Shown here: in pieces, positions 12,006-16,595 of the stretch
How positions within the stretch are numbered: position 1 is the first letter of the stretch
How the letters are laid out: every line of letters starts with the position of its first letter
From: Methanolobus sediminis
GTDB taxonomy: Archaea; Halobacteriota; Methanosarcinia; Methanosarcinales; Methanosarcinaceae
Assembly: GCF_031312595.1 (NCBI RefSeq)
Contig: NZ_CP133592.1
Location: forward strand, 1,798,001-1,862,000
DNA: 64,000 bases
Reading direction: 5' to 3'
Made by a program: the position numbers and the translations under genes
Notes under the pieces: generated by a model
Told to the model about the DNA's origin: nothing
The model's input: the letters and a program-made list of their open reading frames with translations, nothing else
Databases searched by the model: none

Positions 12006-12126
12006 GGTATCTGTCTCTCTAAATGTCAGAACCGGGATAAAAATGTAAAGGTTAACTTCAGTTATCCATACCTATATAAATAAAAGTAGTTTACATCAGG
12101 TTAACCCATTAACGAGGTGAGTATAT

Positions 12127-12783
12127 ACGGGTCTTTCAAACTACATCGGCAGGTATTGGGCAGGCGCTGAAGCTATTTATGCAGTAATACTTGCAATGAC
12201 ATTTACAAGTGTACTGAGAACTTTTTCAGATGCCTCCGTTACCTCGTACATGCCCGTAGTGTACTCCGCACTTTTTTGCTGTATTGCCTGGGGACTGGCA
12301 GATGGACTTTTCTATGTATGGGAACGCAGGTATAATCTCAAAATGGAGAATGAGATAATTGACCTGTGCAAGTCCCGTCTTGACACTGAGGCTGCAATAT
12401 CGATGATACATGACCAGTTGTCCAATACGATACTCAGCAACATTGATGAAAGTAAAAGGCAGGATCTGTATCTTGACCTGATATCCTATCTGTCTGCTGC
12501 CGGAAGGAAAGAATTCGTGCGTCCAAGAGATGCATTCGATATTGTGGCAGGAACCCTACTTGTCTCCACTCTGGCCGGGCTAATGGTCCTCTCTCCTTTT
12601 TTTGTAGTGCCGGATATGTATCGTGCTCTTGCGATATCCAACTGGCTCGGAATAATCCTGCTTTTTGTGACCGGTTACTTCAGGACATATGAACAAAGCC
12701 CAAAGGACAGGTTAAGGTCAGGATTTATCACTGCTGTTGTTGGTATGACTATCGCTGTTGTAACTGTGGTAATCGGCGGGTAA
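12127..12783 (+). CDS. Membrane protein, VIT/DUF125-like, with apparent ACG start
   Basis: 218 residues if read from ACG at 12127; the first ATG in frame is 12196 (195 residues). Coding-like sequence continues upstream of that ATG (GLSNYIGRYWAGAEAIYAVI), and no ATG, GTG or TTG exists between it and the in-frame stop at 12118-12120. A strong GAGGTGA site (12114-12120) ends six bases before ACG, and a TATA-like TATATAAATA lies near 12073. The protein has helices at the N-terminus (MPVVYSALFCCIAWGLADGL) and three at the C-terminus, with a charged helical middle. This is the layout of small VIT-family proteins, but transport function is not established. A frameshift in GGG 12129-12131 is the alternative explanation. 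Confidence 0.7.
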   Translation, partial: TGLSNYIGRYWAGAEAIYAVILAMTFTSVLRTFSDASVTSYMPVVYSALFCCIAWGLADGLFYVWERRYNLKMENEIIDLCKSRLDTEAAISMIHDQLSNTILSNIDESKRQDLYLDLISYLSAAGRKEFVRPRDAFDIVAGTLLVSTLAGLMVLSPFFVVPDMYRALAISNWLGIILLFVTGYFRTYEQSPKDRLRSGFITAVVGMTIAVVTVVIGG

Positions 12784-15514: not shown

Positions 15515-16180
15515 TTACCTCACACCTTCATTGGTGATGGTAAATTCACAGGTGCCACCTTCCGGGAGTGAGCGGTGTTTCCAGAGTTTTGCACGTCTTT
15601 TTCCATCTCCGGTTTTTTCAAGCTGGATGATGGTTTTAGATATATGCTCGATCCCGCTGCCGCCTATGGGTCTAACACCACCTGCCATGTCGCTGTAGAC
15701 CTGATTTGTCATAACGGCAACTATTCTGTGTTTGCGTGCGATAGCATGTATAAGTCCTATCTGGTTTGCAAGCTCTCTTCTTGTCCTTATGCCGGATTCT
15801 TCCTGGTCAAGTTCAAACCTGTAAAAAGCGGTTGCAGAGTCTATGAGTATCAGCCCTACTTTGTCTGATATGAGTTTCTCTATCTCTTTTACGGCTGCAT
15901 ATTGTTCTTCAAAATTGTGAGGTTCAAAGATAATTATCTGCTGAGCTATCTCTTTAGCATTCTCTCCGGCGATCTGCCTGAACCTGTCTGGCGAGATGGC
16001 TTCAGTATCTATGTAGATAGCTTTTTTTCCTTTTTTGACACATTCCACTGCAAGCTGAAGACACAGATTTGTCTTTCCACTTCCCGGTTCTCCGAATATC
16101 TGTGTGACTACGCCTGCTTCAAATCCTCCGCATAAAAGATTATCAATAGGCTTGCAGCCGGAACTTAGTTGCTCAGTTAT
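15515..16180 (-). CDS. radB: DNA repair and recombination protein RadB, with apparent ATA start
   Basis: 221 residues if read from ATA at 16180-16178. The N-terminus then reads (M)TEQLSSGCKPIDNLLCGGFE and Walker A is GEPGSGKT at residues 30-37; Walker B is GLILIDSA. This is full RadB length and layout (RadA paralogue lacking the N-terminal HhH domain). RadB modulates RadA recombinase. The first standard start in frame is GTG at 16048, which would remove Walker A, and none exists between the upstream in-frame stop and that GTG. A GAGGTG site lies five bases before ATA, and a TATA-like element lies at about 16222-16231. Either ATA is used or a single base has changed from ATG. Confidence 0.85.
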   Translation of the reverse strand: MTEQLSSGCKPIDNLLCGGFEAGVVTQIFGEPGSGKTNLCLQLAVECVKKGKKAIYIDTEAISPDRFRQIAGENAKEIAQQIIIFEPHNFEEQYAAVKEIEKLISDKVGLILIDSATAFYRFELDQEESGIRTRRELANQIGLIHAIARKHRIVAVMTNQVYSDMAGGVRPIGGSGIEHISKTIIQLEKTGDGKRRAKLWKHRSLPEGGTCEFTITNEGVR

Positions 16181-16595
16181 CTTTACACCTCTTTACCAGG
16201 ATTATCTGCTATAATGGGGTTTATAATATACATCTTTTGGCACTGGTAGTGCATTTTTCTTTTATGTCTTTTTCTTTTTTAACCTCTGTAGAACTCCGGT
16301 TGATATGGGTGCACAAACATTGATATTTTTGATTTCCATAAAACAATGAGGATTTAAAACCAAAGTTACCATCCGCCAAAGGCGGCACATTACAATAATG
16401 TGGTATGGGTATAATTCAAAATGTAATTATGGTAATGATTAGAATGCTACAAAGGCCTGCAAAGAAAATATCTTCGAGTATTATGCATATTGTTTTTCTT
16501 CTGATTGGAAAACGCCGGCTTCGCCGGAACCTTCGGTATGGCTCTCGTTATTCATGACTCTAGCAAATCTGTTTGCAAATGTTTCTTAAAATAGC

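Follow-up and report, generated by a model that had tools for sequence, protein, structure and literature searches.

Introduction

The start codons described for archaea are AUG, GUG and UUG (review PMC7531240), and a Ribo-seq paper on small proteins of M. mazei reports, in its accessible part, ATG, TTG, GTG and CTG starts only. Closest to the start presented here are bacterial AUH starts (AUA, AUC or AUU). The infC gene, encoding IF3, begins with AUU or AUA, and IF3 represses its own AUU start; E. coli pcnB also starts at AUU (PMC9410913). In S. aureus, ccpN, infC and citZ combine AUA with a strong Shine-Dalgarno (SD) site, and conserved AUA and AUU starts with an extended SD give ~ 10% (up to 30%) of AUG expression in the tested contexts and can respond to the growth medium (PMC13009471). 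For archaea, an ATC start has been proposed for Staphylothermus marinus rpl12ae (PMC2678158). The factor aIF1 disfavours non-AUG starts in archaea, destabilising the complexes formed on non-AUG codons (PMC6237735; PMC8211752).

The radB gene found in a 64-kb stretch of Methanolobus DNA (the window) matches, at the sequence level, this conserved near-cognate AUH class of the infC/pcnB/ccpN type. Indeed, it has no standard in-frame start, an AUH codon stands at the expected start and is conserved against AUG (102 ATA and 6 ATC in 108 genes), and a GAGGTG or GGGTG SD lies at 5–7 nt in nearly all relatives. With infC it shares a conserved AUH start and a strong SD, but the infC product itself proofreads start codons in a direct loop whereas the radB machinery is archaeal (aIF1/aIF2). 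RadB, a DNA-repair protein and archaeal paralogue of RecA/Rad51, is a RecA-family ATPase, a recombination protein, and is not known to take part in initiation. As in E. coli pcnB, the non-AUG start belongs to a gene that does not encode a translation factor, pcnB being however a single bacterial gene (PMC9410913). The ccpN and cvfC1 genes of Staphylococcus and Bacillus resemble radB in their conserved AUA or AUU, strong or extended SD and suitable spacing (PMC13009471); they are bacterial and their starts were shown by retapamulin profiling and reporters, while radB is archaeal, is documented by genomic evidence and keeps its start across a whole family. The rpl12ae case likewise concerns an archaeal AUH start and was deduced by aligning relatives, but for a single gene of a single genome in a different phylum, with no conservation test alongside it in the passage that proposes it (PMC2678158).

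Reports of AUA starts in Methanosarcinaceae, or family-wide in archaea, were not found in the open-licence literature, and such starts may have been noticed earlier elsewhere or in curated databases. The genomic comparisons argue that the radB AUA start is real and selected, and would make it an archaeal counterpart of the bacterial AUH starts that is apparently new. A selected AUA start kept family-wide would mean that archaea use AUH starts stably and, by analogy with the bacterial cases, that the start codon probably keeps the output of a recombination gene low. Gene finders commonly use AUG, GUG and UUG, and start positions are likely misplaced in methanogen annotations.

Results and discussion

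The radB gene and its start region

On the minus strand of the window, radB reads ITEQLSSGCKPIDNLLCGGFEAGVVTQIFGEPGSGKTN... from ATA (16180-16178) to the TAA stop (15517-15515), i.e. a coding sequence of 221 residues at 15515..16180. The product passes the RadB family model TIGR02237 with 245 bits (cut-off 172.4) and scores 115.6 bits against Pfam Rad51. Residues 3-220 align to positions 3-227 of 235 in model NF006861 and, since residue 3 falls on position 3, the ATA stands at the place expected for the family N-terminus. Placement by named relatives puts the window in Methanolobus, with a RadB 98% identical to that of M. vulcani.

An earlier note on this DNA had read radB from this ATA on the grounds that no standard start lies between the upstream stop and Walker A, that the reading gives 221 residues with the expected RadB N-terminus and that GAGGTG lies five bases upstream, and all of these observations hold. 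The frame is closed by an in-frame TAA (16195-16193), and ATG, GTG and TTG are absent from it between this stop and the GTG at 16048 (16046..16048, minus strand), the first standard in-frame start, 44 codons downstream of ATA and past Walker A. The Walker A motif GEPGSGKT (residues 30-37; 16093-16070) is present in the product solely if reading begins upstream of it, as from ATA. The downstream GTG was rejected as the radB start, given that it would cost 44 codons and, as the note had stated, Walker A. The SD site GAGGTG occupies 16191-16186 on the same strand with a spacer of 5 nt. Further upstream, a TATA-box-like TATATTATA (16222..16230, minus strand) is centred 46 nt from ATA and, with the usual archaeal spacing between TATA box and transcript start, the transcript would begin ~ 20 nt upstream of ATA. 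Folding of the leader RNA is weak at the radB start (z-score 0.83), no structured switch being seen, and the start region has no Rfam match.

Conservation across Methanosarcinaceae

A search of 112 Methanosarcinaceae genomes for RadB was positive in 109, and the start regions of the 108 genes with an intact 5' end, from 13 GTDB genera, were compared. Of these genes, 102 have ATA at the aligned start codon and 6 have ATC; ATG, GTG or TTG occurs in none (0/108). ATA or ATC in every one of the 108 family members is more than chance would give. All six ATC genes come from one genus of small genomes (g15), where the SD is similar (AGAGGTGCAAAC ATC).

The earlier note had left two options, a true non-canonical start or an ATG-to-ATA change in the source genome, and the comparison supports the first but not the second. 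Indeed, all 26 Methanolobus species checked, together with 12 further genera, carry a non-AUG AUH codon, and the alignment of related Methanosarcinales that the note had suggested finds no ATG at this codon within Methanosarcinaceae, ATG being found in other families of the class. A sequencing error or a recent mutation draws on the rarity of AUA starts and nothing else, and identical ATA codons in 102 separately assembled species genomes leave it a negligible probability; we regard it as refuted by the conservation of AUH in 108 genomes.

The SD is kept in essentially all of the 108 genes, as GAGGTG in most and GGGTG in some. Its spacer to the start codon is 5 nt in the window clade and genus g20, 6 nt in most genera and 7 nt in Methanosarcina and g14, and owing to this single-base variation the frame of the GTG inside the SD is not constant. 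This bears on the reading in which that GTG is the real start and ATA an internal isoleucine codon. The arrangement GTG-NNN-NNN-ATA is in frame and open in g19, g23 and part of g16, and most members of an outgroup family (f5), which we take to be Methanoperedenaceae, have an in-frame GTG at the SD place. However, a spacer of 5 or 7 nt puts the GTG outside the radB frame in the window clade, g20 and Methanosarcina, and the GTG is followed by TAA, TAG or TGA in most other Methanolobus. Where it is in frame, a stop often comes next (GTG TAA AAG ATA; GTG TGA AAA ATA; GTG TAG AAA ATA), and many species have in-frame stops immediately upstream of the radB ATA. In the window itself (16188-16183, minus strand) this GTG is ruled out as the radB start by its frame and by the TAA that follows at once. 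Taken with the third-base behaviour of isoleucine codons given below, this makes the reading highly improbable.

The same GTG-stop pair, which overlaps the SD of the window gene as well as that of many Methanolobus and Methanococcoides species, could form a mini-ORF after which reinitiation brings the ribosome to ATA. The mini-ORF is nevertheless absent in Methanosarcina (GTGTCA), in g19 and g23 (mostly GTGTAC) and in part of g16 (GTGAAG), where ATA is kept, and we give this explanation hardly any credence.

Selection on the third base

Approximately the first 64 radB codons were aligned, a tree was built with FastTree and third-position changes were counted by parsimony; the tree is based on a short alignment, every column being compared on that same tree. 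The start codon shows a single third-position change (A to C), compared to 6 to 26 (mean 17) at the 33 remaining codons that at least 90% of genes share; two conserved isoleucine codons have 16 and 18. Neither an internal isoleucine codon nor a neutral start would show such constancy. Furthermore, A/G changes at the third position of conserved K/E/Q codons number 7, 7, 11, 14 and 16, compared to 0 at the start codon. This pattern indicates that the AUA start of radB is held by purifying selection across Methanosarcinaceae, and is neither an error nor a recent mutation.

An AUH codon that is merely tolerated, as a neutral relic of an ancestral change devoid of regulatory meaning, is a competing reading of radB, and an unlikely one. 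Several unrelated genes of Methanosarcinaceae genomes have AUH starts too, so that this class of codon is evidently workable, and ATG does occur, in three of the 21 radB genes of Methanoperedenaceae and in the PhoU-like genes of g15. Neutral drift should however have yielded ATG, a single transition away from ATA, yet ATG, GTG or TTG is found in 0 of 108 family radB genes against 7 to 16 A/G third-position changes at each of the conserved K/E/Q codons.

Outgroups

In 12 of the 21 species of Methanoperedenaceae the aligned codon is ATA; five have ATT, one has ATC and three have ATG, with GGAGTG or GGAGG upstream of the codon. Many of them have an in-frame GTG three codons upstream, where translation could possibly start, and are hence less clear. 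Among the individual loci, no GTG or ATG stands in frame between the stop and ATA of L196, a TGA closes the frame of L198 three codons upstream of ATA, and L201 has its nearest standard codon, a TTG, 11 codons upstream. Ca. Argoarchaeum and a GoM-Arc1 relative possibly have ATT at the radB start, and ATG or GTG stands there in family f7 and in most of the deeper relatives. Given ATA, ATT or ATC in Methanoperedenaceae and ATG or GTG deeper, AUH at the radB start is a feature of part of Methanosarcinales; the three ATG genes among 21 show that the weak codon is not required in Methanoperedenaceae.

Proposed mechanism of initiation

We consider it probable that radB translation starts at AUA with the ordinary initiator Met-tRNA on an SD-anchored start, and that selection keeps this start most likely because it holds RadB low. 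The comparative sequence data argue strongly for initiation at the AUA itself. The 30S subunit would be held by the strong SD, GAGGTG pairing with the 16S tail, while the initiator Met-tRNA (CAU) would pair with A1 and U2 of AUA and mismatch at position 3, so that RadB probably still begins with Met. All AUH codons would be serviceable for the ordinary initiator, hence AUA, AUC or AUU among relatives. By analogy with bacterial infC, pcnB and ccpN, the weak codon would cap RadB synthesis, and may also expose it to start-codon proofreading by aIF1.

A dedicated AUA decoder, whether an initiator tRNA carrying agmatidine or an A-to-I edit that turns the codon into AUI, would fit the predominance of ATA in radB and in the PhoU-like gene described below, and archaea do carry an agmatidine tRNA-Ile(CAU). 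Yet the ATC of g15, the ATT and ATC of Methanoperedenaceae and the mix of ATA, ATC and ATT in the Hps and PHP genes leave no need for an AUA-specific reader; indeed, that base 3 may be A, C or T points to tolerance of a third-base mismatch by the CAU initiator. The initiator-like tRNA(CAU) genes of the source genome (G000:C1:1070460-1070739) are two identical tandem copies, ordinary in sequence, with A1-U72 and three G-C pairs in the anticodon stem. The AUC and AUU codons of relatives thus make AUA-specific decoding very unlikely. The AUA start is open to direct testing in Methanosarcina, for which genetics and published ribosome profiling exist.

Other genes with AUH starts

Coding sequence lying ahead of the first standard start was searched for in 864 kb of the source genome G000 (the window and 40 stretches of 20 kb each; 576 coding-like ORFs) and, with the same criteria, in 400 kb of one Methanosarcina (227 ORFs). 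As a gene is detected by the scan only when 12 or more coding-like codons precede its standard start, the resulting frequency of ~ 0.7% is a lower bound. Besides radB, four genes were found in the source genome. A PHP-domain protein gene (L286:14165-15100) has GAAGGTGGAATT then ATA, its relatives having ATA, ATC or ATT. The gene of a MazE/AbrB-PhoU protein (L290:9215-10222) reads TGA GGG ATT TCA ATA GAA, with ATA as start, and among 22 Methanosarcinaceae genes this codon is ATA in 18, ATC in 2 and ATG in 2 (both g15). In the outgroups L344, L346, L347 and L348, the Met of METRKVQ aligns exactly to this ATA, and the AUH codon is thereby identified as the start; L331 and L339 are ambiguous, with an ATG two codons upstream. 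A ProV-like ATPase gene (L393:17019-18236) is without a standard start and has ATT after GAGGAATTACA, and a NOP5/aNOP56 gene (L292:14915-16000) has an apparent CTG start after GGAGGG, with TTG in most relatives.

The Methanosarcina scan yielded an Hps-RraA (hexulose-phosphate synthase) gene, with GAGGTGATACT ATA, and methanogenesis marker 11, with GGAGGTTTTCTGA ATT. In most of Methanosarcinaceae, Hps-RraA has ATA, ATC or ATT after GGTGAT. In the source genome and G001 (L430 and L432, compared to L438), the SD is degraded to GTTGAT, the AUH codon has become ACT or AAT, and an in-frame ATG lies upstream of the lost codon. This natural swap, in which SD and AUH are lost and an upstream ATG is present, marks the AUH codon as the former Hps-RraA start. 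The marker 11 gene, with TiaS-like domains (L405:9842-10837 in Methanosarcina G090), follows directly on an in-frame TGA and has ATT at the expected start, and its N-terminal extension is seen in Methanosarcina and the nearest genera only.

These genes raise the idea of a translational regulon of AUH starts in Methanosarcinaceae, comprising radB, the MazE/AbrB-PhoU regulator, Hps, the PHP phosphoesterase and others, whose output would be set jointly by start-codon proofreading through aIF1 or initiator-tRNA charging. We hold this to be doubtful; if true, it would couple regulators, and the capacity for recombination, to the state of translation initiation.

Two further genes have unusual starts. 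The 2-isopropylmalate synthase gene of the source genome (L393:5708-7249) is coding-like from the TGA stop onward, with 51 codons lacking a standard start. In the window, a VIT1-like membrane protein gene (12121-12783, plus strand) has a GAGGTGA overlapping the upstream TGA stop; its first standard start lies 25 codons in, the earlier codons are coding-like, and an ACG start is possible.
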